A stretch of DNA of 39,151 nt from a virus: positions 1 to 39,151 of IMG/VR virus record IMGVR_UViG_3300020465_000870; one strand, given 5' to 3'. Below, piece by piece: positions 1 through 27,161 of this stretch (position 1 is its first letter; the number at the start of each line of letters is the position of its first letter). Position numbers and translations under genes: made by a program. Below the pieces are notes generated by a model. The model worked only from the letters and a program-made list of their open reading frames with translations. It searched no databases and was not told the DNA's origin.

Positions 1-396
1 CCTGAAGAAAAATATGATGTCATCGAGAGCATGGTAGATAAACTTGATGAAATGGAAGGTAAACTCAACGAGCAAATCGAAAAGAATATTGCTCTTAACA
101 GGAGATTAGCCGAGTCCACTTCTGATGTTGTCTTTGGCGAAGTTGCCGAAGGACTTGCATCATCACAAAAGGAGAAACTTGCAACCCTCGTGGAAAATGT
201 TGAGTTTGAAAGTGAGTCAGACTATCGGGAGAAACTAGTAACACTTAAGGAATCTTATTTCCCAAGTAATGCTGGATCTCAAAGAGACAAGTCAGAAAAT
301 TTATCTGAAGGCACAGAAACTCCCGAAAATATAGCGGAAATATCAAACACAATGTCTGCATATCTTCAGACTCTGAATCGTGTCTCTAAAAAGTGA
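1..396 (+). CDS. 22: Prohead core scaffold protein gp22, C-terminal part
   Basis: The reading frame is open from the first base and has no start inside the window, so this is the last 131 residues of a longer protein. It is rich in Glu, Lys and Ser, with a coiled-coil-like helix near the left edge (DKLDEMEGKLNEQIEKN) and a disordered acidic tail. This is the composition of the T4 gp22 scaffold, which forms the prohead core and is degraded by the gp21 protease during maturation. Its position directly before gp23 is the invariant T4-like order. The family call rests on this context and composition, because little of the sequence is conserved. Confidence 0.85.
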   Translation, partial: PEEKYDVIESMVDKLDEMEGKLNEQIEKNIALNRRLAESTSDVVFGEVAEGLASSQKEKLATLVENVEFESESDYREKLVTLKESYFPSNAGSQRDKSENLSEGTETPENIAEISNTMSAYLQTLNRVSKK

Positions 397-405
397 TTTT
401 TATAT

Positions 406-413
406 CATAAATT
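406..413 (+). promoter_or_regulatory. Possible late promoter CATAAATT before gp23
   Basis: CATAAATT lies 23 bases before the gp23 start. It differs at one position from the NATAAATA late promoter box recognised by gp55-type sigma factors in cyanophages. It is weak on its own and is listed because gp23 is expected to have its own strong late promoter. Confidence 0.35.
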
Positions 414-436
414 CAAACTTACGAGGTAAAACTTAA

Positions 437-1864
437 ATGCAAGCCCCTATTAATCAGGAAGCTCTGCAGGAGAAGTGGGCACCACTACTAGACTACGAAG
501 GTTTAGATCAAATTAAAGATCCTCATCGTAGAATGGTAACCGCCGTTCTCTTGGAGAACCAAGAACAAACAATGCGCGAAGAGCGCGAATTCTTAACTGA
601 GCAACCAACAAACGCAACTGGATCTTCAGGTGCTACTGCTGGTTTCTCTGCTGGCGCAACTGCAGCAGGCCCTGTTGCTGGTTTCGACCCAGTACTTATA
701 AGTCTTATCCGTCGTTCAATGCCTAACTTGGTCGCTTATGACCTAGCAGGTGTTCAACCAATGAACGGCCCAACAGGACTTATCTTCGCAATGAGAAGTC
801 GCTTCACTTCACAGAGTGGAACAGAAGCACTATTCGATGAAGCAGATACAGCATTCTCTGCACAGCATCCAGACGGAGGAAACGACGTTTCTGCTGGATA
901 CACTCAGAATGAGGGTGCAAATACAGGTGGAGCAGTTGGTTTCGGTACTACAGGTGGTACTCAGCAAACTAACCCTGCTGCACTTAACCCAGAAAGTGGT
1001 CAGCAACACAATACCTACGTTACTGGACGTGGTATGGATACTGAGGACTCTGAAGCACTCGGTACAACTGGAAATGCTTTCAACGAGATGGCATTCTCAA
1101 TCGAGAAAGTCACCGTTACAGCGAAGACCAGAGCACTCAAAGCTGAGTACAGTCTAGAACTTGCTCAAGACTTGAAAGCAATTCATGGTCTTAATGCTGA
1201 AGCAGAACTTGCCAACATTCTTTCTACTGAGATCCTTGCTGAGATCAATAGAGAAGTTATCAGAACAATCTATAAGGTTGCTGAATCTGGTGCACAAACA
1301 AACACAGCAACTGCTGGTGCGTTTGACCTAGACACAGACAGTAACGGTAGGTGGTCTGTTGAGAAGTTCAAAGGACTTATCTTCCAAATCGAGCGCGACG
1401 CTAACGCTATCGCACAAAGAACTCGTCGCGGAAAGGGTAACATGATCCTCTGCTCTGCTGACGTTGCTTCTGCACTCACAATGGCAGGTGTTCTAGATTA
1501 CACCCCTGCACTTAATGCAAACCTTAACGTAGATGACACAGGCAACACATTTGCTGGTGTTCTTCAAGGTAAGTACAGAGTTTACATCGACCCATTCGCT
1601 GCAAACTTAGCTGCTGATCAGTACTACGTTGTTGGATACAAAGGTACATCACCTTACGACGCTGGATTATTCTACTGCCCATACGTTCCTCTACAGATGG
1701 TTCGTGCGGTTGGTCAGGACACCTTCCAACCAAAAATTGGATTTAAGACTCGCTACGGCATGGTCGCAAACCCATTCGCAGAAGGTACAACTCAGGGTCT
1801 TGGTCGTCTTGCAGTTAACGCTAACCGTTACTACAGACGTGTTAAGGTTCAGAACCTCATGTAA
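437..1864 (+). CDS. 23: Major capsid protein gp23
   Basis: This 475-residue protein is the T4-type major head subunit, which forms the hexamers of the prohead and mature capsid. The N-terminal delta region (about residues 1-55) ends in Leu-Thr-Glu at 53-55. That fits the L/I-x-E cleavage rule of the gp21 protease, so maturation probably cuts after Glu55. A Gly/Ala/Thr-rich stretch follows, then the conserved segment with FDPVLISLIRRSMPNLVAYD (residues 83-102), which is diagnostic of cyanophage gp23. The C-terminal HK97-like core ends near the stop with RYYRRVKVQNLM. Codon use is richer in C-ending codons than in neighbouring genes, as expected for the most highly expressed phage gene. A strong terminator follows. 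Confidence 0.98.
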   Translation: MQAPINQEALQEKWAPLLDYEGLDQIKDPHRRMVTAVLLENQEQTMREEREFLTEQPTNATGSSGATAGFSAGATAAGPVAGFDPVLISLIRRSMPNLVAYDLAGVQPMNGPTGLIFAMRSRFTSQSGTEALFDEADTAFSAQHPDGGNDVSAGYTQNEGANTGGAVGFGTTGGTQQTNPAALNPESGQQHNTYVTGRGMDTEDSEALGTTGNAFNEMAFSIEKVTVTAKTRALKAEYSLELAQDLKAIHGLNAEAELANILSTEILAEINREVIRTIYKVAESGAQTNTATAGAFDLDTDSNGRWSVEKFKGLIFQIERDANAIAQRTRRGKGNMILCSADVASALTMAGVLDYTPALNANLNVDDTGNTFAGVLQGKYRVYIDPFAANLAADQYYVVGYKGTSPYDAGLFYCPYVPLQMVRAVGQDTFQPKIGFKTRYGMVANPFAEGTTQGLGRLAVNANRYYRRVKVQNLM

Positions 1865-1883
1865 TTCATATTACATATCTTTC

Positions 1884-1914
1884 AAAGACTCCCTTTCGAG
1901 GGGGTCTTTTTTTT
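1884..1914 (+). terminator. Rho-independent terminator after gp23
   Basis: A 10-bp stem (AAAGACTCCC with GGGGGTCTTT, one G-U pair) closes a 6-base loop, TTTCGA. It is followed directly by a run of T residues to 1914. It lies 20 bases after the gp23 stop and should end the head-gene transcript. Confidence 0.92.
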
Positions 1915-1979
1915 GACTAAGTATAAATTCGTAGGCATTTCTTTTTGTTAACAAAATCTTTAGGATATCAACACCATAT

Positions 1980-1987
1980 AATAAATA
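1980..1987 (+). promoter_or_regulatory. T4-type late promoter box AATAAATA
   Basis: AATAAATA matches the NATAAATA late promoter motif of cyanophages. It lies between the gp23 terminator and the small gene starting at 2068, leaving a leader of about 70 bases. A second looser copy (TATAAATT) is at 1922-1929. The 1865-2067 interval holds only the terminator and these boxes. Confidence 0.55.
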
Positions 1988-2067
1988 ATGGTAGAATTGG
2001 AGAACCAATATGTAACCAAACCTTGCTTGGTTATGGTGCAAAAATCAAAGAATTTAGGAGGCAATTA

Positions 2068-2214
2068 ATGCACAACCTAGTATCATATAATCAACTAGCA
2101 GGTTCATACGATGATGAACAAGACAACAAACTCACAGAATACTACGAGTGTTTAATTGACTGTCTAGACGACCAACACGTATGTAAACGTATTTGTAGGG
2201 AGGTTCTTACTTAA
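2068..2214 (+). CDS. Small conserved cyanophage protein, Cys-rich C-terminus
   Basis: This is a 48-residue protein with no known function. The start at 2068 is chosen because a strong ribosome binding site (AGGAGG) lies 7 bases upstream. The frame can be extended to a TTG at 1945, but that would run through the promoter region and has no binding site. The second half is acidic and contains three Cys residues (ECLIDC and KRIC), which could bind metal or form disulfides. It has its own promoter and terminator, so it is probably expressed late as a single-gene transcript. Similar proteins are common next to gp23 in cyanomyoviruses. Confidence 0.75.
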   Translation: MHNLVSYNQLAGSYDDEQDNKLTEYYECLIDCLDDQHVCKRICREVLT

Positions 2215-2239
2215 GTTATCAAAGTCTTTCATGAATGGA

Positions 2240-2264
2240 GAGAGGAGCAATCCTCTCTTTTTTT
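2240..2264 (+). terminator. Rho-independent terminator with GNRA tetraloop
   Basis: A 7-bp stem, GAGAGGA with TCCTCTC, closes a GCAA tetraloop of the stable GNRA class. Seven T residues follow. It ends the transcript of the small gene at 2068. Confidence 0.93.
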
Positions 2265-2271
2265 ATCTCTA

Positions 2272-2279
2272 TATAAATA
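2272..2279 (+). promoter_or_regulatory. Consensus late promoter TATAAATA
   Basis: TATAAATA is the exact T4 late promoter box. It lies directly after the terminator and only 5 bases before the ATG at 2285. Transcription starting about 6-8 bases downstream would begin at or inside that start codon. Either that gene is leaderless or the main targets are the downstream genes from 2400 to 3942, which include structural genes. Confidence 0.75.
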
Positions 2280-2284
2280 CCTAT

Positions 2285-2437
2285 ATGAAAGACAAAAAAG
2301 CAGCGAAACTAATCCTAAAACGAGCCAAAAAAAATCCTAAATTGTATTCTAAACAAGAAGTTTATTATGCAAAACAGATAAAAAAACAACTCAAGAAAGA
2401 TGCCTTATCACATAAAAAAACCAAGTGCGACGAATAG
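2285..2437 (+). CDS. Small basic conserved cyanophage protein
   Basis: This 50-residue protein is strongly basic: about one third of residues are Lys or Arg, with repeated KKAAK and KKQLKK helices. A nucleic-acid-binding role is possible but not shown. The ATG at 2285 is preferred over an in-frame ATG at 2231, because 2231 lies before the terminator and the late promoter. It overlaps the next gene by 38 bases in another frame, which is typical of compact late operons in these phages. I recognise it as a recurrent hypothetical protein of cyanomyoviruses and cannot name a function. Confidence 0.7.
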   Translation: MKDKKAAKLILKRAKKNPKLYSKQEVYYAKQIKKQLKKDALSHKKTKCDE

Positions 2438-2597
2438 TAGTGTAGATGTATATTACATCGGTGCTGCAAAAGGTTTTGCTAGGTGGAGTGATGATTTTAG
2501 TAAAAGAAAACAATATACAAAAAACCCAACCTATCTAACCACAAACAATGATGGTAAAAATGGTGGATGGAAAGGGTGTAGTGTTGTTTCCGAATAA
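2400..2597 (+). CDS. Conserved cyanophage hypothetical protein (MPYHIKKPS family)
   Basis: This 65-residue soluble protein resembles a small family that recurs in T4-like cyanophages. Members start MPYHIKK, contain a VYYIG segment with an aromatic W (RWSDDF), and end with a Gly/Trp motif (NGGWKGCSVVSE). No catalytic motif is visible. It begins inside the upstream basic gene, and its location among late genes suggests a virion or assembly role. That role is inference only. Confidence 0.75.
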   Translation: MPYHIKKPSATNSSVDVYYIGAAKGFARWSDDFSKRKQYTKNPTYLTTNNDGKNGGWKGCSVVSE

Positions 2598-2622
2598 CTA
2601 AATAACTAAAAATATAACTCCA

Positions 2623-2781
2623 ATGAAACCATCACCACGCCAATTAAAAGAGGCTACAAAGGCATACGAAAAGATAATAAACCATTTAGTTAGTGAGGGA
2701 TATGCATCAAATAAAGGAGATGCAGATTCTATTATCGGTGGAATGAGTGAAGAATGGTATCACATGATCGTTAACGAATGA
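2623..2781 (+). CDS. Small hypothetical protein
   Basis: This 52-residue helical protein (starting MKPSPRQLKEATKAYEKII) ends in EEWYHMIVNE. Its stop codon overlaps the start of the next gene as ATGA, so the two are probably translationally coupled. The N-terminus resembles other small cyanophage proteins with a helical KEATKAYEKIINHLVSEGYA segment. No function can be assigned. Confidence 0.65.
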   Translation: MKPSPRQLKEATKAYEKIINHLVSEGYASNKGDADSIIGGMSEEWYHMIVNE

Positions 2782-3065
2782 AAAATTTTCAAGAGTTTCT
2801 TGAATCGACAAAGTGCCCAAAAGGATATAGATTCGATACAAAACTTAAGAGTTGCGTCCCAACTAAAAGATATCCATACTATCCTTATGGGATGTTAGGT
2901 AGAAGTAGGGAGGAAACGAAAAATGGTAACGGATCTAATGGATCTAACGGGAATGGAACTAATGGTTCTCATTCTGGCAACGGTAATGGTTCTAACGGGC
3001 ATTCTGGTGGGAATGGTGGTGGAGCTTCGGGCAATGGCGGCAACGGTGGGGGAAACGGAGGTTAG
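2778..3065 (+). CDS. Gly/Asn/Ser-repeat protein with capsid-targeting-like N-terminus
   Basis: This 95-residue protein starts MKNFQEFLES. That resembles the T4 capsid targeting sequence MKTYQEFIAE, found on internal head proteins and removed by the gp21 protease. A short Cys-containing module follows (residues 13-27, CPKGYRFDTKLKSC). After about residue 49 the protein is almost purely Gly, Asn and Ser with a few His and Thr (GNGSNGS repeats), so the tail must be flexible or aggregation-prone. It overlaps the gene before by ATGA and is followed after 2 bases by another gene with a similar N-terminus. It may be packaged in the head, but the last-residue cleavage match (F-L-E) is imperfect. Confidence 0.7.
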   Translation: MKNFQEFLESTKCPKGYRFDTKLKSCVPTKRYPYYPYGMLGRSREETKNGNGSNGSNGNGTNGSHSGNGNGSNGHSGGNGGGASGNGGNGGGNGG

Positions 3066-3067
3066 TC

Positions 3068-3385
3068 ATGAAAAATTTACGCCAATTTCTAGAAGAATCA
3101 AATCCACGCATTCCTAGAAAGAAAGGTCAACCAGCAAAATCAAAAAAACATTCGGACTTGTATACAGACGAAGATCCGAAGGGAACTATTCATGGTCTTG
3201 GATTTAAAGATGAATCCACAGCTAGATCGAGTGTAACAAAAATAAGAAAATCAAGCCGTTCACACGCACATAAAATACAGGCAGCGATTGCGATGGAGCA
3301 ACGTGCTAGAGTAATGGGTAAGACATCAGAAGCAGCGATCTATCGTAAGTTTATAAATTCTATGAAGAAGAAAACTAAAAAATGA
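3068..3385 (+). CDS. Basic protein with capsid-targeting-like N-terminus, candidate internal head protein
   Basis: This 105-residue basic protein starts MKNLRQFLEES. The segment L-E-E fits the L/I-x-E rule of the T4 prohead protease, so cleavage after residue 10 is plausible. The rest is Lys/Arg-rich. It contains a conserved cyanophage module (HGLGFKDESTARSSVTKIRK and SHAHKIQAAIAMEQRAR, about residues 43-82) and ends KKKTKK. T4 internal proteins IPI-IPIII share this layout: a targeting peptide followed by a small basic domain carried with the DNA. Its location between gp23 and gp3 in the late operon supports this. The enzymatic role, if any, is unknown. Confidence 0.75.
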   Translation: MKNLRQFLEESNPRIPRKKGQPAKSKKHSDLYTDEDPKGTIHGLGFKDESTARSSVTKIRKSSRSHAHKIQAAIAMEQRARVMGKTSEAAIYRKFINSMKKKTKK

Positions 3386-3942
3386 CATCATCTACAAATC
3401 GTGGCCCTTTAGCAGGTCAAATTGCAAATCGTAATTATCTTTCACCGATTGGGTTTAAATTTATTTTATCTAAATTTCCCAAGATAGATTTCTTCTGCAA
3501 CTCTGCTTCAATACCAGATATCACATTAGGAACATTTCAACAACCATCATACTTAAAGTTTATTGATGTCCCCGGTGAAAAATTAACTTATGGAGATTTA
3601 GATATTCGATTCTTAGTTGATGAGAATATGGAAAATTATGCAGCAGTTCATAATTGGTTAACAGGATTAGGTTTTCCAGAAACACCACAACAATTTGTCA
3701 ATAAAACTACAGATTCTGATGGTATTCGTGATTTGGAAGAACAATTTTGTGATGGATCTCTACGTATCTTGAATAGTAATTATCGTGATGTTGCTATAGT
3801 AAAATTTCAAGACTTATTTCCCGTATCCTTAACATCTCTAACATTTGATGCTACAGAATCAGATATACAATACTTTACAGCACAGGCTGTTTTCCGCTAT
3901 ACTATATACACACTAACTGATACGACTGGCAAACCTTTATGA
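3382..3942 (+). CDS. 3: Tail completion and sheath stabiliser protein gp3
   Basis: This 186-residue protein belongs to the tail-tube fold group. Cyanophage members in this position, between gp23 and uvsY, are the gp3 equivalents that cap the tail tube and sheath. Conserved stretches include NRNYLSPIGFKFILSKFPKI (residues 17-36), FLVDENMENYAAVHNWLTGLG (about 78-98), and the FPVSLTSLTFDATESDIQYF region near the C-terminus. T4 gp3 has a similar length (176 residues). Confusion with the related tube protein gp19 is possible, but gp19 normally sits upstream beside gp18. The start overlaps the stop of the basic protein gene, and the stop overlaps the uvsY start. Confidence 0.85.
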   Translation: MTSSTNRGPLAGQIANRNYLSPIGFKFILSKFPKIDFFCNSASIPDITLGTFQQPSYLKFIDVPGEKLTYGDLDIRFLVDENMENYAAVHNWLTGLGFPETPQQFVNKTTDSDGIRDLEEQFCDGSLRILNSNYRDVAIVKFQDLFPVSLTSLTFDATESDIQYFTAQAVFRYTIYTLTDTTGKPL

Positions 3943-4367
3943 ATCTTGAAAAAATTCAGGAGATGTGGGAGCGTGATGCTGTCATTGATCCTGATAATCT
4001 ACATGATGAGTCATTAAAAATACCTCAATTACATTCAAAGTATTATACAATCTATAATACGATTAGTTTGATGCGTGAGAAAGCAAGAGAGACATATAAT
4101 AAAATTAAATTAGAGAGACATAATTACTACACAGGAAAGGCAACTGCAGAAGTATATGCCGAAGACCCATTTCCATACAAAGTTAGAGAAAAGGACGCAA
4201 TACAGAGGCATCTAGATGCTGATGAAAGACTTAATCAGAGTGACATGAAGATTAGATATTATGATGTGACTCTTAAATTTTTAGAAGAGATAATCAGAAA
4301 TATATCTGGTCGTACATACCAAATTAAGAATGCCATTGAGTGGCAGAAATTTCAATCTGGATTTTAA
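3939..4367 (+). CDS. uvsY: Recombination mediator UvsY
   Basis: This 142-residue protein is the T4-type UvsY. It loads the UvsX recombinase onto single-stranded DNA covered by gp32. The N-terminal helix (LEKIQEMWERDAVID) and the segment LHSKYYTIYNTISLMREKARETYNK match the family. So does the basic motif with LERHNYYTGK (K/R-x-x-YY-x-G, residues 59-68), known in T4 as LDYYSG. The length is almost that of T4 UvsY (137). It is coupled to gp3 by an ATGA overlap. The frame stays open to the tRNA region without a terminator, and transcripts running on would read antisense to the tRNA. Confidence 0.95.
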   Translation: MNLEKIQEMWERDAVIDPDNLHDESLKIPQLHSKYYTIYNTISLMREKARETYNKIKLERHNYYTGKATAEVYAEDPFPYKVREKDAIQRHLDADERLNQSDMKIRYYDVTLKFLEEIIRNISGRTYQIKNAIEWQKFQSGF

Positions 4368-4385
4368 ATAAATATATTTTTTAAA

Positions 4386-4481
4386 CTGTAGAGGCACGAC
4401 TCGAACGTGCAAGACCTACCAAGCTAATGATTGATCGGGAGAGAAACAGTCTCCTGTGTTTACCAATTTCACCACTCTACA
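4386..4481 (-). tRNA. tRNA-Asn(GUU)-like gene with long variable arm
   Basis: Read on the minus strand from 4481 to 4386, the sequence folds as a tRNA. The acceptor stem is TGTAGAG/CTCTACA (7 bp) and the D stem is GTG/CAC with GG in the loop. The anticodon stem is GGAGA/TCTCC with loop CTGTTTC. A 27-base variable region follows (plus-strand 4411-4437). The T stem is GCACG/CGTGC with the canonical loop TTCGAGT, and the discriminator is G. No CCA is encoded. The anticodon GTT (4445-4447) reads Asn codons. G73, the U1-A72 pair and the GUU anticodon agree with bacterial Asn identity. The long variable arm (a 5-bp hairpin ATCAA/TTGGT is possible) is a Leu/Ser/Tyr trait, and base 37 is T rather than the usual purine. 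It lies 12 bases downstream of the AsnRS-like gene. Confidence 0.85.
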
Positions 4482-4493
4482 TTGACCCTGAAG

Positions 4494-5297
4494 TTAATCA
4501 GGGATTGCTTGCATGATACGTGTTACACCGATTCCTCCTCCACTTCTAGGAAAGAAATCAAACTCAAGGAACTCTTCTAGTTCTTTCTCAACTCTTTCCT
4601 TACCAAATAATTTGTAAAGTAAGTCAGCATATTGCCCATCAGAGATAGTATGGAATGTATCACGCATCTGTTTCTTATCGGTGCTACGTTCCGCAGAACC
4701 AATAGTTTCCATACCATTTAAGATTACATCAATCTTCTTACTGGTTTCACCATCATCATTTCTTGCCATATTCCAGAATGGTGATGTCCACTCAGGGAAA
4801 TGTGTAATCATACCACGACCAATTGATTTCTCATGATCATGATCTAATTCTTTGGTCTTAAATGCTCCTGCCCAATGCTCATATTTTTTAACATCATATT
4901 CTTGTAAAGGAACACCTACATACTTGCATAATTCCATCTCCATTTTCTCAAGTTCTTCCACACCACCGTGCATTTCAAACTCAAACATTGGGAAGATTAC
5001 TTCATGTCTTCCTTCTACTGGATTTGGTTCTTGACGATATGAGGTGGAGACACAAAAGAAACCGGGTGCTTCTGGATTCTTGAGTAATTCATATTCCAAC
5101 CACATCTGTCCTGTTTGTGGAAGTGGCCAAACTTGTCCATTATATTCATATGTTGCTACAGTTTCAGGATCTTCGCATGCAGCAAGTATACTTAAACGGT
5201 TCTGAGTATGAACTTCAAAAAAACCTTTAGACAAAAAAAATGACCTTAATAGGTCAACGGTCTTTGTATACTTTTTCGGGTCAATGAGACTTGTCAT
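4494..5297 (-). CDS. Class II aminoacyl-tRNA synthetase catalytic core, AsnRS/AspRS-like, without anticodon domain
   Basis: The 267-residue protein has the three class II synthetase motifs. Motif 1 is around FFLSKGFFEVHTQNR (residues 20-34). Motif 2 contains Y-R-Q-E (87-90), followed by RHEVIFPMFEFEM. Motif 3 is SGGGIGVTRI (252-261). GMETIGSAERSTD (195-207) resembles the AsnRS/AspRS glycine-rich flipping region. Full AsnRS is about 460 residues with an N-terminal OB-fold that reads the anticodon; that domain is absent here. Known AsnRS paralogues without it include AsnA-type asparagine synthetases, so Asn synthesis from Asp is an alternative. The neighbouring tRNA-Asn-like gene on the same strand favours a tRNA substrate. 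It is the only protein gene on the minus strand. Confidence 0.9.
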   Translation of the reverse strand: MTSLIDPKKYTKTVDLLRSFFLSKGFFEVHTQNRLSILAACEDPETVATYEYNGQVWPLPQTGQMWLEYELLKNPEAPGFFCVSTSYRQEPNPVEGRHEVIFPMFEFEMHGGVEELEKMEMELCKYVGVPLQEYDVKKYEHWAGAFKTKELDHDHEKSIGRGMITHFPEWTSPFWNMARNDDGETSKKIDVILNGMETIGSAERSTDKKQMRDTFHTISDGQYADLLYKLFGKERVEKELEEFLEFDFFPRSGGGIGVTRIMQAIPD

Positions 5298-5325
5298 TAT
5301 TTTAGGCTAAACTGCATTATTTAGC

Positions 5326-5345
5326 ATTTAGTGAGCTCACTAAAT
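5326..5345. promoter_or_regulatory. Perfect 20-bp palindrome between divergent genes
   Basis: ATTTAGTGAGCTCACTAAAT is a perfect inverted repeat with no spacer. It lies in the 70-base gap between the start of the synthetase-like gene (minus strand) and uvsW (plus strand). Because it sits at the 5' ends of both genes, a terminator role is unlikely. A dimeric operator controlling both directions fits better. No clear sigma-70 boxes are visible around it. Confidence 0.7.
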
Positions 5346-5367
5346 ATCTGTGAATGAACACTATTTT

Positions 5368-6831
5368 ATGTCTCATTTGAGTATATCAAAAAAGAATGAA
5401 GTTTTCCTTCAGGTAGAATCAGATCCGCATGTATACTACGAGTTATCTGATCAATTTACCTTTGAGATTCCGGGAGCTAAATTCATGCCTCAATACCGTA
5501 ATAAGTATTGGGATGGTAAGATCCGTCTATTCAACGTAAAGAACGGAGAAATCTACGTTGGACTACTGGATAAAATACAAAAGTTTTGTGACGATCACGA
5601 ATATACTTACGAGTTTGTAGATAATAAATTCTTTGGCACACCTTTTGAAGTCAATGAGCATATCTCATATGAGGGTGTTAAAGATTATATGAAATCTATT
5701 TGCAAGTATGTTCCTCGTGATTATCAAGTAGAGGGAGTATACGACGCTTTAAGACATAATAGAAAGTTGTTGATATCCCCAACTGCTTCAGGAAAGTCTC
5801 TGATGATATATTCGATTGTGAGATATTACGTTGAACGGAAGCAAAATACTCTGATAGTTGTTCCGACGACTTCGCTAGTAGAGCAAATGTATAAAGATTT
5901 TGCGGATTATGGGTGGGATGTAGGTTCATTTTGCCATAAGATATACGCTGGTAAAGAAAGAGAGACGGACTCTCAGGTCATAATTACTACTTGGCAATCA
6001 ATCTATAAACTCCCCAGAAAGTATTTTGAGAGATTCTCTGTTGTAATTGGGGATGAAGCGCACCAGTTCAAAAGTAAATCACTTATATCTATAATGACAA
6101 AACTTCACAAGGCCAAATATAGATTTGGATTTACTGGCACACTTGATGGAACGCAAACACATAAGTGGGTTTTAGAAGGATTATTTGGCCCTTCATATAA
6201 AATTATAGGAACTAAAGACCTCATGACCAAAGGTCATGTTGCAAAACTTGATATTAATATATTACTACTAAAACATTCTCCACAAAAGTTTGAAACATTT
6301 GAGGATGAAGTTCAATACATTATCAATAATGAACAGAGAAATAAATTCATAAGAAATCTTACATTAGATCTAAAGGGAAATACATTGATTTTATATTCAA
6401 GAGTTGAGGGCCATGGAAGAGTTCTTTATGATTTAATAAATAGTAATGTACTCGAACAGCGTCAAACTTTTTTTGTCCACGGAGGAGTGGATGCTGAAAA
6501 TCGTGAAAATGTTCGGTCAATCACTGAATCCGAAATTAATGCTATAATAGTTGCATCTTATGGGACTTTCTCCACAGGAATTAACATTAAAAATTTACAT
6601 AACGTTATTTTTGCATCACCGTCTAAATCTCGAATACGGAATCTACAATCAATTGGAAGAGTCCTGAGAAAAGGTAACAACAAAGTTAAAGCCACTTTGT
6701 ATGATATTGCAGATGACATTACATACAAATCAAGAAGAAACTACACTTTGAATCATCTTGTAGAAAGAATTAAAATCTACAATGAAGAAAACTTTAATTA
6801 TGACATCATCAACATTTCACTCAAAAAATAA
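5368..6831 (+). CDS. uvsW: DNA/RNA helicase UvsW
   Basis: This SF2 helicase remodels recombination and replication forks and removes R-loop origins late in infection. Starting at the ATG at 5368 gives 487 residues and an N-terminus (MSHLSISKKNEVFL) like cyanophage UvsW. A GTG at 5350 would add six residues. The N-terminal UvsW domain contains PGAKFMPQYRNKYWDG. Walker A is SPTASGKS (about residues 137-144), and the DEAH box is in GDEAHQF. Motif VI is in QSIGRVLRKGNNK near the C-terminus. T4 UvsW has 503 residues. It starts just beyond the 20-bp palindrome and is followed after one base by the next gene. Confidence 0.95.
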   Translation: MSHLSISKKNEVFLQVESDPHVYYELSDQFTFEIPGAKFMPQYRNKYWDGKIRLFNVKNGEIYVGLLDKIQKFCDDHEYTYEFVDNKFFGTPFEVNEHISYEGVKDYMKSICKYVPRDYQVEGVYDALRHNRKLLISPTASGKSLMIYSIVRYYVERKQNTLIVVPTTSLVEQMYKDFADYGWDVGSFCHKIYAGKERETDSQVIITTWQSIYKLPRKYFERFSVVIGDEAHQFKSKSLISIMTKLHKAKYRFGFTGTLDGTQTHKWVLEGLFGPSYKIIGTKDLMTKGHVAKLDINILLLKHSPQKFETFEDEVQYIINNEQRNKFIRNLTLDLKGNTLILYSRVEGHGRVLYDLINSNVLEQRQTFFVHGGVDAENRENVRSITESEINAIIVASYGTFSTGINIKNLHNVIFASPSKSRIRNLQSIGRVLRKGNNKVKATLYDIADDITYKSRRNYTLNHLVERIKIYNEENFNYDIINISLKK

Positions 6832-6832
6832 T

Positions 6833-7291
6833 ATGAGAGACGAATTTTTCAGCATCTTAAAACTTGTTTCTGGTGAAGAAATCTTCGCACTCGTTTGTGT
6901 AGATGAAAGTGAGGATGATCCTATTCTAGTCTTGCATAATCCAATCAAAATGACTCCTATACCTCATGTAGGTAATGCAAGTCAACTTAATTATATAAAA
7001 GTCACTCCTTGGATGGAGATGACAACTGAAGACATGTATGTATTAAAAATGGATAAAGTAATCACAATGATTGAATGTCGTGATAAAAAACTAATTGCAA
7101 TATACAAACAGTATGTTGAAGACGAACAAAACTCTGGTGGAGTTGAAATATTTAAACCTAAATTAAATACAGGAAAAGTAAAATTATCAACAGACTTAGG
7201 ATATGTCTCTAGTGTTGAACAAAAAAGAGAATCCCTTGAAAAAATATTTAAAGAAGATATAAAGGATACTAAAGATACGAAAGAAAGCTAA
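6833..7291 (+). CDS. Conserved cyanophage protein, possible Sm-like small beta barrel
   Basis: The 152-residue protein begins MRDEFFSILKLVSGEEI directly after the uvsW stop (TAATATG). Longer in-frame starts inside uvsW are less likely. The first 85 residues show the pattern LKLxSGEEIxA, a hydrophobic strand, NPIKM, then TPWMEMT and an IT-MIE strand. Two proteins at 33093 and 33382 share this order. The pattern looks like a small five-stranded barrel of Sm/LSm type, but this is inference from the strand pattern. The C-terminal third is Lys/Glu-rich and probably disordered. It is found beside uvsW in other cyanophages without known function. Confidence 0.7.
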   Translation: MRDEFFSILKLVSGEEIFALVCVDESEDDPILVLHNPIKMTPIPHVGNASQLNYIKVTPWMEMTTEDMYVLKMDKVITMIECRDKKLIAIYKQYVEDEQNSGGVEIFKPKLNTGKVKLSTDLGYVSSVEQKRESLEKIFKEDIKDTKDTKES

Positions 7292-7354
7292 TACCCCTTC
7301 CAAACCTCACAAAGGTTATTGTACATAGTTTTAGGGGTCTTGTCAAGCATCACC

Positions 7355-7382
7355 TTGTCACCTGACAAAAATGTGTTATAAT
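7355..7382 (+). promoter_or_regulatory. Sigma-70-type promoter for gp55 with embedded inverted repeat
   Basis: TTGTCA (7355-7360) and TATAAT (7377-7382) are spaced by 16 bases and lie 24 bases before the gp55 start. The -35 box is the left arm of an inverted repeat TTGTCA-CC-TGACAA (7355-7368), so a repressor could block it. The 115-base gap also holds a two-tier hairpin (7293-7338) without a T run. Confidence 0.75.
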
Positions 7383-7406
7383 AAGAACAGTTAAGACAAA
7401 TAAGTT

Positions 7407-7883
7407 ATGCCAAGAAAGAAGTCTGAACATTATGTAAATAACAAAGAACTACTTGAGGCATTGATAGTATATCGATCAAAAGTCGCTGTTGCTAAAGAAA
7501 AAGGATTGCCAAAGCCAAGAATTACAAACTATCTTGGAGAATGCTTTCTTAAGATAGCAACTCATCTATCATATAAACCAAACTTTGTGAATTATATGTT
7601 CCGTGATGATATGATATCTGACGGAATTGAAAACTGTGTTCAATACATTCATAATTTTGATCCAGAGAAATCTCGCAATCCTTTTGCATATTTTACTCAG
7701 ATCATACACTATGCATTTTTAAGACGTATTCAAAAAGAGAAAAAGCAGTTAGATATTAAGAATAAAATTATTGAGAAGACAGGTTATGATGAAGTAATGC
7801 ACGTTGAGCCTGGTGCATTGACGGGAGCAATGTCCGAGTATAATACGATTAAAGATAACATTGCACAAAAGAAAAACAGATAA
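7407..7883 (+). CDS. 55: Late transcription sigma factor gp55
   Basis: This 158-residue sigma-like factor directs host RNA polymerase to NATAAATA late promoters. In T4 it works together with the sliding clamp gp45. The sigma region 2 core is visible in MFRDDMISDGIENCVQYIHN and FDPEKSRNPFAYFTQIIHYA (about residues 67-104), followed by the FLRRIQKEKKQ helix. As in T4 gp55 (185 residues) there is no region 4. It has its own sigma-70-type promoter, so it should be made by the unmodified host polymerase before late genes. The next gene starts one base after its stop. Confidence 0.95.
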   Translation: MPRKKSEHYVNNKELLEALIVYRSKVAVAKEKGLPKPRITNYLGECFLKIATHLSYKPNFVNYMFRDDMISDGIENCVQYIHNFDPEKSRNPFAYFTQIIHYAFLRRIQKEKKQLDIKNKIIEKTGYDEVMHVEPGALTGAMSEYNTIKDNIAQKKNR

Positions 7884-7884
7884 C

Positions 7885-8226
7885 ATGGCTATCTACAATG
7901 ATGTAAAGATCACAATTGATCTGAATGAACTGGTTGAGTGTAGGGCAAAGTTTCTTAAACAGAGTATGAGTCCAAATCAAATTGATTATCTGGCAGAAAC
8001 TTTGCGTAGAACTTTGACATGGGATAATCTATATTTCATGGTTGATGAGTCCATCTTAGAGTTTTTTGACAATCATGAGCATCCAGAAATTTGGGATTCT
8101 CATTATGGTGAGACTGCTGGTAATGAACCTGCTGCTACTTTTGAAAAGAACAGACAGCAATTTAAGATGGTAAAATTAGAATCACCATCATGGACAATTG
8201 AAGTACCAGTACGTAAGAAAAAATGA
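7885..8226 (+). CDS. Conserved cyanophage hypothetical protein
   Basis: This 113-residue soluble protein starts MAIYNDVKITIDLNEL one base after the gp55 stop and overlaps the gp47 start by ATGA. It has an N-terminal helical region (NQIDYLAETLRRTLTWDNLY), an acidic centre and a basic end (VPVRKKK). No motif identifies a function. Its fixed position between the late sigma factor and gp47 in cyanophages suggests co-expression with recombination genes. Confidence 0.7.
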   Translation: MAIYNDVKITIDLNELVECRAKFLKQSMSPNQIDYLAETLRRTLTWDNLYFMVDESILEFFDNHEHPEIWDSHYGETAGNEPAATFEKNRQQFKMVKLESPSWTIEVPVRKKK

Positions 8227-9257
8227 AAGTAGCAATTATAACGGATACTCATTTCGGTGCACGAAAGGGATCTAAGTATCTGCATGATTACTTTGAACTC
8301 TTTTACAAAGATGTGTTCTTTCCAAAAATGGAAGAATATGGAATTGATACTGTCATTCATATGGGTGATGTATTTGATAGTCGTAAGGCTATTGATTTGC
8401 AAACACTTGAATGGTCAAACCGTGTTGTCTTTGAACCATTGAAGAAGTATAAGGTATATGCAGCAACAGGAAACCATGATGCATATTATAAAAATACAAA
8501 CTTTGTAAACTCACCTGAGTTACTTCTTACATCTCATACAAATTGGGAGATATACTCAAGTGCGAAAGAGATTCAAGTAGATGGATTGGATATATTATTA
8601 CTTCCTTGGATTACTACAGAAAATTATGATCACACTTTAAATGCTATTAAATCATCTAAGTCAAGAGTTGCAATGGGTCATCTTGAATTAAATGGATTCA
8701 AAGCTACTCGTGGACATATGATGGAAGATGGTATGGATGTAAATGTCTTTGATAAGTTTGACACTGTATTCTCAGGGCATTTTCACACAAGATCAAATGA
8801 TGGAAAGATATTCTACCTTGGTAATCCTTATGAGATGTTTTGGAATGATGTAAATGATAAGAGAGGATTTCATATCTTTGACACTGAAACTCTTGAATTA
8901 ATTGAAATTAATAATCCTTATAAATTGTTTTATAATGTTTACTATGAAGATACTAATCATCGTATCTTTAACACCAGTCAGTATGAAAATAAAATTGTAA
9001 AAGTTATTGTTCGTAAAAAGTCGGATCCAAAAGAATTTGAAAAGTTTATTGACAAGTTATATAATGCAGGTGTTCAAGATTTAAAGATTATTGAGAATTT
9101 TGCTATTCTTGAAAATGAGGAATTTGAAGTTGATGAAGATGAAAATACTATCTCAATATTGAATCGCTATATTGATGAAGCTGAGATGGAGTTTGACAAG
9201 AGTATTGTAAAAAACATTTTTAGGGATCTATATCGACAAGCCTGCGAGGTAGGGTAA
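8223..9257 (+). CDS. 47: Recombination endonuclease subunit gp47 (Mre11/SbcD-like)
   Basis: This 344-residue calcineurin-like nuclease forms the gp46/gp47 complex. The complex resects DNA ends for recombination-dependent replication and host DNA breakdown. Metal-binding motifs are in order: DTHFG (Asp8, His10), GDVFD (Asp49), GNHD (residues 83-86), GHLE (about 155-158) and GHFHT (about 183-187). T4 gp47 has 339 residues. Its stop overlaps the start of the DUF3110 gene, which separates it from gp46. Confidence 0.97.
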   Translation: MKVAIITDTHFGARKGSKYLHDYFELFYKDVFFPKMEEYGIDTVIHMGDVFDSRKAIDLQTLEWSNRVVFEPLKKYKVYAATGNHDAYYKNTNFVNSPELLLTSHTNWEIYSSAKEIQVDGLDILLLPWITTENYDHTLNAIKSSKSRVAMGHLELNGFKATRGHMMEDGMDVNVFDKFDTVFSGHFHTRSNDGKIFYLGNPYEMFWNDVNDKRGFHIFDTETLELIEINNPYKLFYNVYYEDTNHRIFNTSQYENKIVKVIVRKKSDPKEFEKFIDKLYNAGVQDLKIIENFAILENEEFEVDEDENTISILNRYIDEAEMEFDKSIVKNIFRDLYRQACEVG

Positions 9258-9544
9258 TGTTTCTTCTTACACTTAAACACCGAAAGGATGATGGAGCATT
9301 TGCTGTTCAAGACACGGATGGTGATAAAGTTCTGTTTTTGTTTGTGGAAGAAGACGATGCTGAAAGATATGCTATGATGTTAGAGGATCAAGAGCATTCT
9401 GATAAGAAAAAGAAACTAGAAGTTATAGAAGTTGATGATGCCCTTGCCATAAAGACGTGTAACATGTATAATTATAAGTATGCTGTCATCACTCCTGATG
9501 ACCTTGTGATTCCAATTAGTAATGATAAGATTCAAGAAAATTAG
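9257..9544 (+). CDS. DUF3110 protein
   Basis: This 95-residue protein matches the cyanobacterial DUF3110 family. It has an N-terminal strand (FLLTLKHRKDDGAFAVQDTDGDKVLFLF), the conserved EEDDAERYAMMLEDQEH helix and a C-terminal segment with VIEVDDALAIKTC. The family is essentially restricted to cyanobacteria, plants and their phages, and its function is unknown. It is inserted between gp47 and gp46 and overlaps gp46 by 23 bases. That arrangement is typical of cyanomyoviruses and a strong sign of host range. Confidence 0.85.
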   Translation: MFLLTLKHRKDDGAFAVQDTDGDKVLFLFVEEDDAERYAMMLEDQEHSDKKKKLEVIEVDDALAIKTCNMYNYKYAVITPDDLVIPISNDKIQEN

Positions 9545-11234
9545 ATGGAAAAATTTTCTGTCAACAGGTGATCACTGGACAGAGGTTGATTTTTTAAAAC
9601 ACCATACAAATTTAATAATCGGAACCAATGGGTCAGGTAAGTCTACAATGTTAGATGCCCTGACTTTTGTGCTGTTTAACAAACCATTTCGTAAAATTAA
9701 TAAATCACAACTAATTAATACTACAAATGAAAAGGGAACATTAGTTGAGATTGAGTTTGATGTAAATGCAAAGGAGTATTTGATTCGTAGAGGTATCAAA
9801 CCAAATACTTTTGATATTGAAGTAAATGGTACAGCATTGCATCGTGAGGCTGATGACCGATCAAATCAGAGGATACTTGAAGAGAATATACTGAAAGTAA
9901 ATTACAAGTCATTCACTCAAATAATCATATTGGGTAGTAGCACGTTTGTTCCTTTCATGCAACTGAGTGCACCTAATAGAAGAGATGTGATTGAAGATCT
10001 TTTAGATATTCGTATCTTCTCGTATATGAATAATCTTTTAAAAGAAAGTATAAGAGAGAAGAAAGAAAAAATTAGATCACTTAATCTAAAGAAGGAAACT
10101 TTAACTGACAAAATACAAATGCAGTCTAAGTTTATCAAGGAAATAGAGAATCGTAGTAAAGAAGATATTAAAGAGAAGAAAGAAAAGATTACAGAATTAT
10201 TTTCTGAAACTGATAATTATGTATTAATTAATGGAGAGCTAGGAAATGAAGTTTTTGACTTATCTAAGCAGCAAGAAGGAGTTGCAGGTGCAGATAAAAA
10301 GTTAAGAAAATTAAATAATTTGAAAGGTAAAATATCTAATAAAGTATCTACTATTACCAAAGAACATAAGTTTTTCACAGACAATACGGTATGTCCTACA
10401 TGTGATCAGGATATAGAAGAATCGTTTAGGTTAAATAGAATTGCTGATGCTCAAGATAAAGCAAAGGAGTTGCAATCTGGTTATAAGGAACTAGAAGAGG
10501 CAATTAAAAACGAAGAAAACCGAGAGCATCAGTTTACCACACTCACAAAGGAGATTTCTAAACTCAACAATGACATTTCTCAAAACAATACTCGAATTTC
10601 TGGATGCCAACGACAGATCAGAGATTTGGAATCGGAAGTACAAAAATTTACCGAGCAACTTAAAAACAGAAATATTGAGCATGAGAAACTAGCAGAGTTT
10701 AAGGAGAATCTTCAAAAAACTATAGATGAGTCATCTGAGAAGAATCAGGATATTGTACATCATGATTTTGCATATTCACTTCTTAAAGATGATGGTGTTA
10801 AGACGAAGATAATCAAAAAATATTTGCCATTAATTAATCAGCAAGTAAATCGTTACTTGCAGATGATGGACTTCTATATCAATTTTAAATTGAATGAAGA
10901 GTTTAGTGAAACTATAGAGTCACCGATTCATGAAGATTTTTCATATGCTTCATTTAGTGAAGGTGAAAAGATGAGAATTGATTTAGCACTTCTATTTACA
11001 TGGAGAGAAGTGGCCAGAGTAAAGAACTCTGTCAATACAAATCTATTAATTATGGATGAAGTATTTGACAGTTCTCTTGATGGTTTTGGTGTGGATGAAT
11101 TTATGAAGATTATTCGTTTTATAATTAAAGATGCAAACATCTTTGTAATATCGCACAAATCAGACTTACATGATAAGTTTGAGAATATGATTAAGTTTGA
11201 CAAAGTTCGTGGATTCAGTAGAATAGTATCATGA
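9522..11234 (+). CDS. 46: Recombination endonuclease subunit gp46 (Rad50/SbcC-like)
   Basis: This 570-residue SMC-type ATPase partners gp47 in end resection. The N-terminal Walker A is GTNGSGKS (residues 34-41). Long coiled coils run through about residues 170-430, with a zinc hook CPTC at 291-294. The C-terminal ATPase half has the signature FSEGEKMR and Walker B LLIMDEVFD, followed by the ISHKSDL switch region. Domain order and length match T4 gp46 (560 residues). The start inside the DUF3110 gene is supported by the conserved opening IRFKKIRWKNFLSTG. Confidence 0.97.
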   Translation: MIRFKKIRWKNFLSTGDHWTEVDFLKHHTNLIIGTNGSGKSTMLDALTFVLFNKPFRKINKSQLINTTNEKGTLVEIEFDVNAKEYLIRRGIKPNTFDIEVNGTALHREADDRSNQRILEENILKVNYKSFTQIIILGSSTFVPFMQLSAPNRRDVIEDLLDIRIFSYMNNLLKESIREKKEKIRSLNLKKETLTDKIQMQSKFIKEIENRSKEDIKEKKEKITELFSETDNYVLINGELGNEVFDLSKQQEGVAGADKKLRKLNNLKGKISNKVSTITKEHKFFTDNTVCPTCDQDIEESFRLNRIADAQDKAKELQSGYKELEEAIKNEENREHQFTTLTKEISKLNNDISQNNTRISGCQRQIRDLESEVQKFTEQLKNRNIEHEKLAEFKENLQKTIDESSEKNQDIVHHDFAYSLLKDDGVKTKIIKKYLPLINQQVNRYLQMMDFYINFKLNEEFSETIESPIHEDFSYASFSEGEKMRIDLALLFTWREVARVKNSVNTNLLIMDEVFDSSLDGFGVDEFMKIIRFIIKDANIFVISHKSDLHDKFENMIKFDKVRGFSRIVS

Positions 11235-11581
11235 GATATTGTATAGACATCGATGGTACAATATGTACCCCAACAATTGGTAGAGACTACCACAAAGCAC
11301 AACCTTGGTATGATAGAATTAAGGTTCTAAACAAACTTTATGATGAAGGTCATTACATTATCTACTTTACTGCAAGAGCTATGGGTAGATTCTCTGATGA
11401 ACCTCATTCCATTGCATCTGTAAAAGCAGAAGGAGTTCTATTTGAGTTGACTCAAAATCAACTTAAAGAATGGGGAGTTAAATATCATGAATTAATCATG
11501 GGTAAACCACATGCAGATTATTTTATAGATGATAAAGCATGGTCTGATAAATTATTTTTCAATGACATGGGGGCACAATGA
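11231..11581 (+). CDS. HAD-superfamily phosphatase-like protein
   Basis: This 116-residue protein has the HAD motif I DIDGTIC (nucleophile Asp6, acid Asp8) and motif II as YFTARAMGR (Thr in FTA). The motif IV acidic pair is in YFIDDKAW. It has no cap domain, like small HAD phosphatases found in LPS and capsule sugar operons. It overlaps gp46 and the epimerase-like gene by 4 bases each, so it belongs to a two-gene sugar-modification insert after gp46. Substrate unknown. Confidence 0.85.
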   Translation: MRYCIDIDGTICTPTIGRDYHKAQPWYDRIKVLNKLYDEGHYIIYFTARAMGRFSDEPHSIASVKAEGVLFELTQNQLKEWGVKYHELIMGKPHADYFIDDKAWSDKLFFNDMGAQ

Positions 11582-12363
11582 AACTAAACACTCCTTTTAC
11601 AATTCCAAATTCAAAACCAGATATTGATAATGTTGGTTTTTCTCGTAAGAAAATTTTAGTTACTGGACATCTTGGTTTTATTGGAAGTCATGTTTATCAG
11701 TATTTTGTGGCTCAAGGACATGATGTTGATGGTTTTGATATACCAAATGATATTGGTAATTTTAAAACAAAAAAGAAGTATGATTTAGTGGTTCATCTAG
11801 CAGCAAATGCTGCTATCAGAGAAGCAATTGCAAATCCTGATGCATTTTGGGAAAATAATGTAGTCAAGTCAAAACCTATATTTGAGTATTGTAGAGATAA
11901 TAATGTTAGATGTTTATATGCAAGTTCTGCATCTGTATATGAGTGGTGGATAAATGCATATGGTATCACAAAGAAAGTGAACGAAATACAAGCACCACCT
12001 AACAGCGTAGGTATGCGATTCTTTAACGTGTATGCAGAGAAAGTGAGTAGACAAGATATGTTGTATAGAATGTTAGAAGATAGAACTGCAACATATCTAA
12101 CACGACATAAGAGAGATTGGATTCATGTTCATGATATTGTTTCAGCAATCGCAGTTCTAGCAGAAAGTGATTATACTGGTGTCTTAGATGTTGGTACAGC
12201 AAATCCTATATCAGTGATTGAATTGGCCACTAAGATGGGTATGGGTCATCTTCCTATTAAAGAAGATACTCCCGGAGAAAGAGATATCACATGTGCTGAT
12301 ATCACAGAATTAAAAAAACTTGGTTGGTCACCGACAATAAATATTTTGGACACTATAAAATAG
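11578..12363 (+). CDS. NAD-dependent nucleotide-sugar epimerase/dehydratase
   Basis: This 261-residue protein is an extended short-chain dehydrogenase of the GalE/RmlB type. The Rossmann motif G-x-x-G-x-x-G is GHLGFIG (residues 30-36). The catalytic pair YGITK is at 128-132, after the SSASVYE segment that supplies the Ser. The sugar-binding GMRFFNVY and the RDWIHVHDIVSAI segment are also present. It is shorter than typical family members (about 310-340 residues). The first 23 residues precede the Rossmann strand and have no obvious role. Together with the HAD gene upstream it may alter a nucleotide sugar for virion or host surface glycans, or divert host carbon. The exact reaction cannot be told. 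Confidence 0.9.
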   Translation: MKLNTPFTIPNSKPDIDNVGFSRKKILVTGHLGFIGSHVYQYFVAQGHDVDGFDIPNDIGNFKTKKKYDLVVHLAANAAIREAIANPDAFWENNVVKSKPIFEYCRDNNVRCLYASSASVYEWWINAYGITKKVNEIQAPPNSVGMRFFNVYAEKVSRQDMLYRMLEDRTATYLTRHKRDWIHVHDIVSAIAVLAESDYTGVLDVGTANPISVIELATKMGMGHLPIKEDTPGERDITCADITELKKLGWSPTINILDTIK

Positions 12364-15762: not shown

Positions 15763-15763
15763 A

Positions 15764-25829: not shown

Positions 25830-25954
25830 AAAGGAAAAGGAAAACGAAACCTTTTCAACTTAACTGTTTCGGTTTTTTCGGAATTGTGCTATTATTAAGT
25901 GGTACTGGTTCCGTTATTTTTGTTTATTATGCTATTATGGAGATGATTAAATGA
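25826..25954 (+). CDS. Single-span membrane microprotein
   Basis: This 42-residue protein has a basic N-terminus (MKRKRKTKPF) followed by a membrane helix (CFGFFGIVLLLSGTGSVIFV). This orientation would place the C-terminus across the membrane. It overlaps both the gene before and pyrE by 4 bases. Function unknown. Confidence 0.55.
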   Translation: MKRKRKTKPFQLNCFGFFGIVLLLSGTGSVIFVYYAIMEMIK

Positions 25955-26508
25955 AAGACGAGTTACTCACAATGTTGAAAGATAGTGCCTATAAAAAAGG
26001 TGATTTCACATTATCTTCTGGAAAACAGAGTGAGCATTATATAAATTGCAAACCTGTCACATTATCAGGTAGAGGTTTAGCAATTACTAGTGCCATGCTT
26101 GTTGAGTGTGTAGAGGATGATTCTGTCGCAGTTGCTGGATTAACTCTTGGTGCTGATCCATTAGTATCGGGTGTTGCACTTGTATCTGCTTTAAACAAGG
26201 GATCACTTTCTGGGTTGATAGTTCGTAAAGAACCAAAAGGCCATGGAACTCAAGCATGGATAGAAGGCCCATTACCTGAAAAGGGATCTAAAATTACAGT
26301 CTTAGAAGATGTAGTTACCACAGGTTCATCTGCAATAAAAGCAGTAGAAAAACTTAGAGATGCTGGTTATGTTGTGAATCGTATTGTCAGTATCATTGAT
26401 AGGCAAGAAGATTGTGATTCCTGTGGAATGGGTGAAGCTGATACTGCTTTTAAGGAGGCAGGTCTTGAATTTTATAGTCTCTTTAATTTGGAGGAAATTA
26501 CTAAATGA
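25951..26508 (+). CDS. pyrE: Orotate phosphoribosyltransferase PyrE
   Basis: This 185-residue type I phosphoribosyltransferase makes OMP from orotate and PRPP in pyrimidine synthesis. Visible signatures are FTLSSGKQSEHYINCK (substrate region), GLTLGADPLVSG, RKEPKGHG (flexible loop) and the PRPP motif ITVLEDVVTTGSSA. A GGAG site precedes the start. The length is close to host PyrE. Together with the purine genes and apt it broadens nucleotide supply during infection. Confidence 0.95.
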   Translation: MKDELLTMLKDSAYKKGDFTLSSGKQSEHYINCKPVTLSGRGLAITSAMLVECVEDDSVAVAGLTLGADPLVSGVALVSALNKGSLSGLIVRKEPKGHGTQAWIEGPLPEKGSKITVLEDVVTTGSSAIKAVEKLRDAGYVVNRIVSIIDRQEDCDSCGMGEADTAFKEAGLEFYSLFNLEEITK

Positions 26509-26853: not shown

Positions 26854-27161
26854 TGATTTTTTTATCAAAACCATCGGTATATACATTACCGGGAACATGG
26901 GAAAAACAAGATGATGTTCTTATCCCACATTTACATTTAACACCTGATCAGGGATTCATCCTTTTCATAGTGTTGTTTTTATTTACTTTAGTTGGAATTG
27001 CTCTTTACAATGCTTTTGGGCCCGGAAGTAAAAATCTTAAAGATCAGATTGACGAGCATGCTAAGCTGCATGAGTTGGGTATTGCTCATGGGCATGAAGG
27101 TAGAAGAGCAGTTATGAAATCTGTAAACAAAGATTATCCGAAGCATTCACATGACGATTAA
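26853..27161 (+). CDS. PsbN-like membrane protein with extra C-terminal tail
   Basis: This 102-residue protein has a membrane helix (about 36-53, FILFIVLFLFTLVGIALY) followed by NAFGPGSKNLKDQIDEHAKL. That resembles the end of host PsbN, where the helix is followed by TSFGPPSKELSDPFEEHED. PsbN is needed for photosystem II assembly and repair and is not part of the mature complex. The phage protein differs by about 30 extra N-terminal residues and a His/Lys-rich tail of about 30 residues. The relationship is visible in the motif but needs profile support. Confidence 0.65.
   Translation: MIFLSKPSVYTLPGTWEKQDDVLIPHLHLTPDQGFILFIVLFLFTLVGIALYNAFGPGSKNLKDQIDEHAKLHELGIAHGHEGRRAVMKSVNKDYPKHSHDD

Follow-up and report, generated by a model that had tools for sequence, protein, structure and literature searches.

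An AsnRS-like synthetase core and a class II tRNA with an asparagine anticodon: a candidate private unit of marine viruses

Related systems and the viral locus

A small class II synthetase that is combined with an odd tRNA of its own and does not need a canonical anticodon domain is known from PylRS and tRNA-Pyl, and the gene pair described here resembles it in these respects. PylRS, however, belongs to another synthetase subclass than the present enzyme, and tRNA-Pyl, with its short variable arm, decodes a stop codon. Charged tRNAs are also used as metabolic carriers, Glu-tRNA in tetrapyrrole synthesis and tRNA-Gly for cell-wall peptides, but these cases rely on ordinary synthetases and class I tRNAs, unlike the present pair. 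We know of no case of such a carrier in pyrimidine synthesis.

The same two genes are found in the records of the Prochlorococcus phages P-SSM2, P-SSM5 and P-SSM7, where they are named 'tRNA ligase' and 'tRNA-Asn'. Among 16 cyanophages, the 'tRNA ligase' (T4-GC 194) was listed for P-SSM2 and P-SSM7 only (Sullivan et al. 2010, PMC3037559, Table 3). This annotation is a bare label, and the available parts of these sources hold no statement on a unit, on the class II nature of the tRNA or on a role. Odd tRNAs are treated in PMC7609411, whose available sections mention neither phages nor tRNAAsn; huge phages are known to carry synthetases, with no mention of an asparaginyl enzyme in the corresponding sections of PMC7162821. 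In open-licence PMC full text, a scope that leaves subscription papers and preprints aside, neither the pair nor a pyrimidine route of the kind considered below was found to be described.

The DNA analysed here (the window) is a stretch of 39,151 nucleotides from the virus record IMGVR_UViG_3300020465_000870. Positions 1-10297 are 99.99% identical over 10,297 bases to a stretch of L007, the 66-kb contig IMGVR_UViG_3300020455_000015, which represents the same virus population. The features relevant to this work are the following.

4386..4481, minus strand: class II tRNA with GUU anticodon, U1-A72 and G73, no encoded CCA (ARAGORN, fold, Rfam, covariation; 91.6 bits with the family covariance model R1)
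4411..4437, minus strand: 27-nt variable region with a long arm (fold and covariation)
4445..4447, minus strand: anticodon GUU (sequence); the next base (4444) is U37
4494..5297, minus strand: 267-aa AsnRS-like class IIb synthetase core without anticodon-binding domain, phrog_29758 (ORF, Pfam, PHROG, predicted structure, structure comparison)
25951..26508, plus strand: PyrE-like phosphoribosyltransferase, not adjacent to the unit, with which it may be connected

The enzyme gene lies 12 nt upstream of the tRNA on the same strand, and the cassette is inverted between a tail-tube-family gene with a 142-aa ORF (3382-4367) and a DNA helicase (5350-6831). The reading that we tentatively put forward is that of a private unit, in which an AsnRS-like core would serve a dedicated carrier tRNA, charged with Asn or Asp and tied to an orotate-type (pyrimidine) pathway.

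The tRNA and its family

The tRNA is the only one detected in the window by ARAGORN. The four-base anticodon 'gttt' given by the program, with a misdrawn anticodon arm, is a drawing artefact: the loop is the 7-nt CUGUUUC, closed by a 5-bp stem. A scan of a 296-bp stretch with Infernal/Rfam matched RF00005 at 44.1 bits (gathering threshold 29), although the gathering scan of the whole window did not find the tRNA, presumably because of a filter effect. The predicted cloverleaf has a 7-bp acceptor stem, a 3-bp D stem, and anticodon and T stems of 5 bp each, and the two-part variable arm is composed of 4 + 4 bp with an A.A mismatch. The acceptor and T stems of 7 and 5 bp differ from the acceptor branch of tRNA-Sec-like molecules and allo-tRNAs, which is 8/4, 8/5 or 9/3. 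It should be noted that the z-score of the fold is only -1.6, and thermodynamics alone is no proof.

Evidence for the fold came from 50 distinct homologous tRNAs, in which 99.9% of 1198 cells are standard pairs and 18 of the 24 stem pairs have changed on both sides. The covariation score was 0.571 versus 0.181 in shuffles, none of 500 shuffles reached the observed value, and pairing dropped to 40-48% in slid controls. Judged from these alignments, the tRNA is intact and under selection, which confirms the view of the earlier note that it is not decayed. The GUU, the G73, the U37, the 27-nt variable region and the Leu-like D arm described there were all found again, and no better fold with a normal Leu anticodon appeared. 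The picture of a chimera, with Asn-type marks on a class II Leu-like body, was thus borne out. The GUU and G73 are those of bacterial tRNA-Asn, but A37, the t6A site, is absent, and a variable region of 17-27 nt with a paired arm replaces the 4-5 nt variable loop of class I. The class II body with its Leu-type D arm is that of tRNA-Leu, but GUU and G73 stand in place of a Leu anticodon and A73.

As to its ancestry, a search of 16 cellular genomes with the family model gave 30 best matches, of which 25 are outside the family, namely 24 tRNA-Leu and one tRNA-Tyr, and the annotated phage matches among those listed by blastn are tRNA-Leu. A Leu-type origin is therefore likely. Across the family the acceptor stems vary widely, while U1-A72, G73 (in all 48 rows with a letter at that position) and GUU (50/50) are fixed.

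The anticodon loop is peculiar. The U37 that had been flagged as an oddity is a family trait, a pyrimidine being present at position 37 in all 50 members; position 33 is C or A in 13 of them and U in the other 37. Among 85 other unique tRNAs of the fetched loci, a pyrimidine at 37 occurs in two, one of which (L269) looks like a family member, and a base other than U at 33 occurs in three. These positions, abnormal for decoding, are the strongest sign in the sequences that decoding is not the constraint on the family. The invariant GUU still needs a reader, which may be the enzyme, the host AsnRS or AspRS, or the ribosome. One tRNA (L071:4963-5050) has the loop CAGTTCA, with both A33 and C37, and is fully paired.

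The ribosome as the reader is the basis of the main rival explanation, a private translation kit, in which the enzyme would load Asn and ribosomes would use the tRNA at AAC/AAU codons, providing more Asn or an escape from host control or tRNA-cutting defences. GUU in every member and U33 in 37 are what this explanation would predict; G73 and the anticodon are the elements of bacterial Asn identity (PMC9976931, in part), and other decoding tRNAs adjoin the pair in P-SSM7. The same evidence weakens the carrier reading, since GUU is invariant even though the enzyme has no anticodon domain, as decoding would predict, and most members keep U33. On the other hand, a translation kit accounts poorly for the pyrimidine at 37 in all members, for the 13 without U33, and for cellular relatives located beside PyrD/E/F-like genes rather than solely beside translation genes. 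We regard it as possible, but not probable.

The synthetase core and its pairing with the tRNA

The 267-aa protein matches Pfam tRNA-synt_2 (class II D, K and N; E 1.4e-14) and, over its full length, phrog_29758, for which no function is given. The structure predicted by AlphaFold (pLDDT 93.1) is nearest to solved structures of AsnRS bound to Asn-adenylate or an analogue of it (Z 26.2, 2.3 A, 244 residues), followed by AspRS (Z 25.1), archaeal asparagine synthetase A (Z 23.3, 240 residues) and GenX (Z 23.2), and Foldseek also puts an AsnRS first. This modelled fold alone leaves the substrate unsettled. The class II catalytic residues do not vary among 40 enzyme sequences, so that the catalytic core with the motif residues typical of AsnRS is present. 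In addition, a QMWLE stretch that belongs to the amino-acid pocket has its Glu aligned with the Glu by which AsnRS contacts the Asn side chain, whereas the AspRS compared has a gap there. The enzyme shares with AsnRS this Glu and the catalytic fold, but the N-terminal OB anticodon-binding domain is absent, all 267 residues being covered by the catalytic fold, and the protein scores far below the NCBIfam asnS cut-off (17.5 versus 342.6 bits). The enzyme likely charges the tRNA with Asn or Asp.

A scan of IMG/VR found at least 598 stretches encoding relatives (of 600 among the matches listed), of which the best 80 loci were taken (L006-L085); these include L007, which approximates the window's own virus, and L082, which is P-SSM7 again. 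With the covariance model, a tRNA was found behind the enzyme gene on the same strand in 80 of the 83 best-matching viral loci. Because the model was built from 50 of these viral tRNAs, high scores are expected, and what is informative is the constant location of the tRNA. Enzyme gene and tRNA are 7-12 nt apart in 76 loci and 88-90 nt apart in four, and in three of the 80 the tRNA is cut by the contig end. In the three loci in which it was not found (L008, L019 and L066), the contig stops at most 5 nt from the enzyme stop codon.

Among 50,697 phage records searched by tblastn, the enzyme was found in P-SSM2, P-SSM5 and P-SSM7 (six records) and in three records of uncultured huge phages; for comparison, a UvsX like that of the window occurs in 474 phage records at E <= 1e-60. 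In the huge phages LR756501 and LR756508, searched whole, no family tRNA lies within 4 kb of the gene, and the best model matches are Leu-type or tRNA-Pro. The pair is located between gp23 and gp3 in P-SSM7 and among other genes in P-SSM2, and therefore appears to move. The enzyme and a dedicated tRNA very probably form a unit, as the conserved gene order suggests. The reading made from the single sequence stands as regards the Leu-like body and non-decoding as a serious option, but it had missed this conserved unit with the AsnRS-like core upstream, and the tRNA is not a lone oddity, being widespread in marine phages.

The two members L006 and L007 have enzymes that are 96% identical and tRNA variable regions of 17 and 27 nt, respectively; hence, the enzyme cannot depend on one arm sequence. 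In the P-SSM2 record (AY939844.2), the tRNA-Asn (PSSM2_199) is annotated at 164094-164179, inside another gene, whereas the model places the family tRNA at 162083-162168, directly behind the 'tRNA ligase' gene; the annotation looks shifted by about 2 kb.

The genome collection contained 105 relatives of the enzyme, and the 80 that were taken are 50-69% identical and come from Patescibacteria, Dependentiae, Midichloria, Gammaproteobacteria, archaeal MAGs and others. A class II GUU tRNA follows the enzyme gene in five of these 80 loci, all MAG contigs with 57-69% enzyme identity, the gap being 6 nt in L087, 8 nt in L110, 172 nt in L089 and 209 nt in L149; in L093 the end of the enzyme reading frame and the tRNA overlap. 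Some of these contigs may be viral, and L149 has genes of the endolysin and ribonucleotide-reductase types. No dedicated tRNA was found locally in the other 75 loci, nor was a class II tRNA-Asn among the best model matches in 11 enzyme-bearing genomes searched whole, where the best were tRNA-Leu. In the enzyme tree (without the cellular rows L124, L132, L157 and L161, of which three have internal stops and the fourth contains unread bases), 22 tRNA-bearing rows and three tRNA-less ones (L088, L090, L092) form one clade with support 96/95 within tRNA-less rows. Two changes of tRNA presence are required, so that an older enzyme probably acquired the tRNA either in a single event followed by one loss or on two separate occasions.

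The loss of AsnRS was considered as a driver and discarded, since a full AsnRS is present in six of 15 enzyme-bearing genomes. A tRNA-Gln is repeatedly found in Patescibacteria-type loci, at most about 5 kb from the enzyme gene (L096, L097, L099, L100, L105, L114, L118, L124 and L153; upstream in L102), often with a DNA polymerase III gamma/tau-like gene in between.

Cellular relatives that lack a dedicated tRNA imply that the reaction of the enzyme may not need one, which weakens the carrier reading and is the starting point of a second rival. The enzyme would be a tRNA-free ligase, similar to asparagine synthetase A or directly making a dihydroorotate precursor, and the tRNA, charged by the host AsnRS or a non-discriminating AspRS through GUU and G73, would act separately or supply Asn. 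Archaeal asparagine synthetase A, which is related to AsnRS, is likewise a core-only class IIb fold of similar size, and GUU is fixed even though the enzyme has no anticodon domain. However, the window enzyme is far below the NCBIfam cut-off for the archaeal enzyme (16.8 versus 389 bits; E 2.7e-08 for the best of 40 family members), AsnRS folds outrank the archaeal one, and the gene is tied to a tRNA both in the viruses and in the five MAG contigs. This explanation seems to us unlikely.

Pyrimidine genes and the possible role of the unit

Neighbour comparison and Pfam showed OMP-decarboxylase-like, phosphoribosyltransferase-like and DHODH-like genes adjoining the cellular enzyme. PyrE- or PyrF-like genes occur in 15 of the 75 tRNA-less cellular loci, which is a raw count; three of these loci (L122, L123, L138) are near-copies, and the rest span several phyla according to the record titles. 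Several loci (L112, L122, L127, L130, L148) show tight same-strand runs. Over curated cut-offs, 20 enzyme-bearing genomes, whose completeness is not stated and many of which look reduced, contained CarB in three, ATCase in two, DHOase in two and PyrF in 17, versus 14, 14, 11 and 14, respectively, in 14 control genomes.

These cellular loci, 15 in all (e.g. L112, L122, L127, L148), combine a small AsnRS-like protein beside PyrD/PyrE/PyrF-like genes with genomes mostly devoid of CarB, ATCase and DHOase, and are a possible start of pyrimidine synthesis that has gone unrecognised, independent of the viral tRNA. If the link is true, such a start would concern Patescibacteria, Dependentiae, Midichloria and others.

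Among 140 Pasteurellaceae genomes the enzyme is present in three, each time adjoining PyrD-, PyrF- and PyrE-like genes, and the cassette may restore a lost route or act in parallel. ATCase was over the cut-off in none of the 140, enzyme-bearing or not, so that its complementarity with the enzyme is uninformative in this family, and P. atlantica has a second PyrF; both facts weaken the link to the pathway.

Three of the five MAG contigs with the tRNA also have a DHODH-like gene: in L087 it immediately precedes the pair, in L093 it comes two genes after the pair, and in L110 it is located elsewhere on the contig. The same query gave no match in the L089 and L149 genomes or in the cyanophage records searched, which also weakens the link. 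PyrE is present in all three enzyme-bearing cyanophages and otherwise, at >=53% identity, only in six SAG virus records, in which no enzyme gene was detected, again to the detriment of the link. According to parts of PMC9983427, phage pyrE and purN profiles follow low-light host ecotypes, and the association in cyanophages may therefore be ecological. Five viral contigs carrying the pair, four smaller ones and one of 150 kb, yielded no PyrE; all of them are possibly fragments. PyrE lies in the fetched flanks of three of the 80 loci L006-L085 (L043, L044, L051), and by a rough estimate such closeness is about chance level for a PyrE-bearing genome. A PurN-like formyltransferase, considered as a one-carbon donor, is not specific, being present in P-SSM2, P-SSM5 and P-SSM7 but also in S-SKS1 and SAG viruses.

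The carrier reading may be detailed as follows. The virus-borne two-gene module would consist of a minimal AsnRS-like synthetase core and its own class II tRNA. The enzyme would activate Asn (or Asp) with ATP and load it onto this tRNA, a tRNA-Leu body given the Asn-type marks U1-A72, G73 and GUU, and the long arm and the non-standard positions 33 and 37 would hold the product out of normal decoding. The charged tRNA would then serve as a carrier substrate, and the entry to an orotate-type (PyrD/PyrE/PyrF) pathway is the likeliest place for it; joining one carbonyl carbon to Asn would, on paper, give the dihydroorotate skeleton, a chemistry that is our own proposal. We infer this role because it best fits loop, pairing and neighbourhood together. 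A wider version, in which a core descended from AsnRS would open the route to orotate by making or processing Asn/Asp-tRNA, in place of CarAB-PyrB-PyrC in many bacteria, and ocean viruses would carry the core together with a class II tRNA built for the carrier role and not for decoding, appears doubtful.

Two further explanations concern the tRNA. As a decoy or resistance tRNA, it would mimic tRNA-Asn closely enough to titrate or withstand a host anticodon nuclease or sensor, with the enzyme keeping it charged; the altered loop with its conserved GUU and the phage origin are in keeping with this, but the pyrimidine neighbourhoods of the cellular relatives would be left unexplained, and we consider it very improbable. 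Least credible of all is a missense tRNA of Leu or Ser type, charged by the host LeuRS or SerRS and putting Leu or Ser at Asn codons, which would suit the Leu-like body and the reading of a long variable arm with G73 by SerRS (PMC7609411, in part), but not the private AsnRS-like core encoded directly upstream, the role of G73 as an antideterminant against LeuRS (PMC9976931, in part) or, on general grounds, the cost of proteome-wide missense.

The carrier reading, if its pyrimidine link is true, would add a further case, beside tetrapyrroles, of a charged tRNA feeding primary metabolism, and with the pair it can be asked directly whether viral tRNAs have a metabolic use. Being present in many ocean viruses and bearing Asn marks on a class II body, it is also a natural candidate orthogonal pair.

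Other genes of the window deserve brief mention. The gene at 11578-12363, like a 279-aa gene of L093, belongs to a common nucleotide-sugar epimerase family and is not part of the unit. Another nucleotide-synthesis gene, PurM-like (phosphoribosylaminoimidazole synthetase family), is located at 15737-16729, and shortly after the PyrE-like gene, positions 27151-28284 encode a 377-aa protein that matches phrog_19197 (no function given) with E 1.1e-157.
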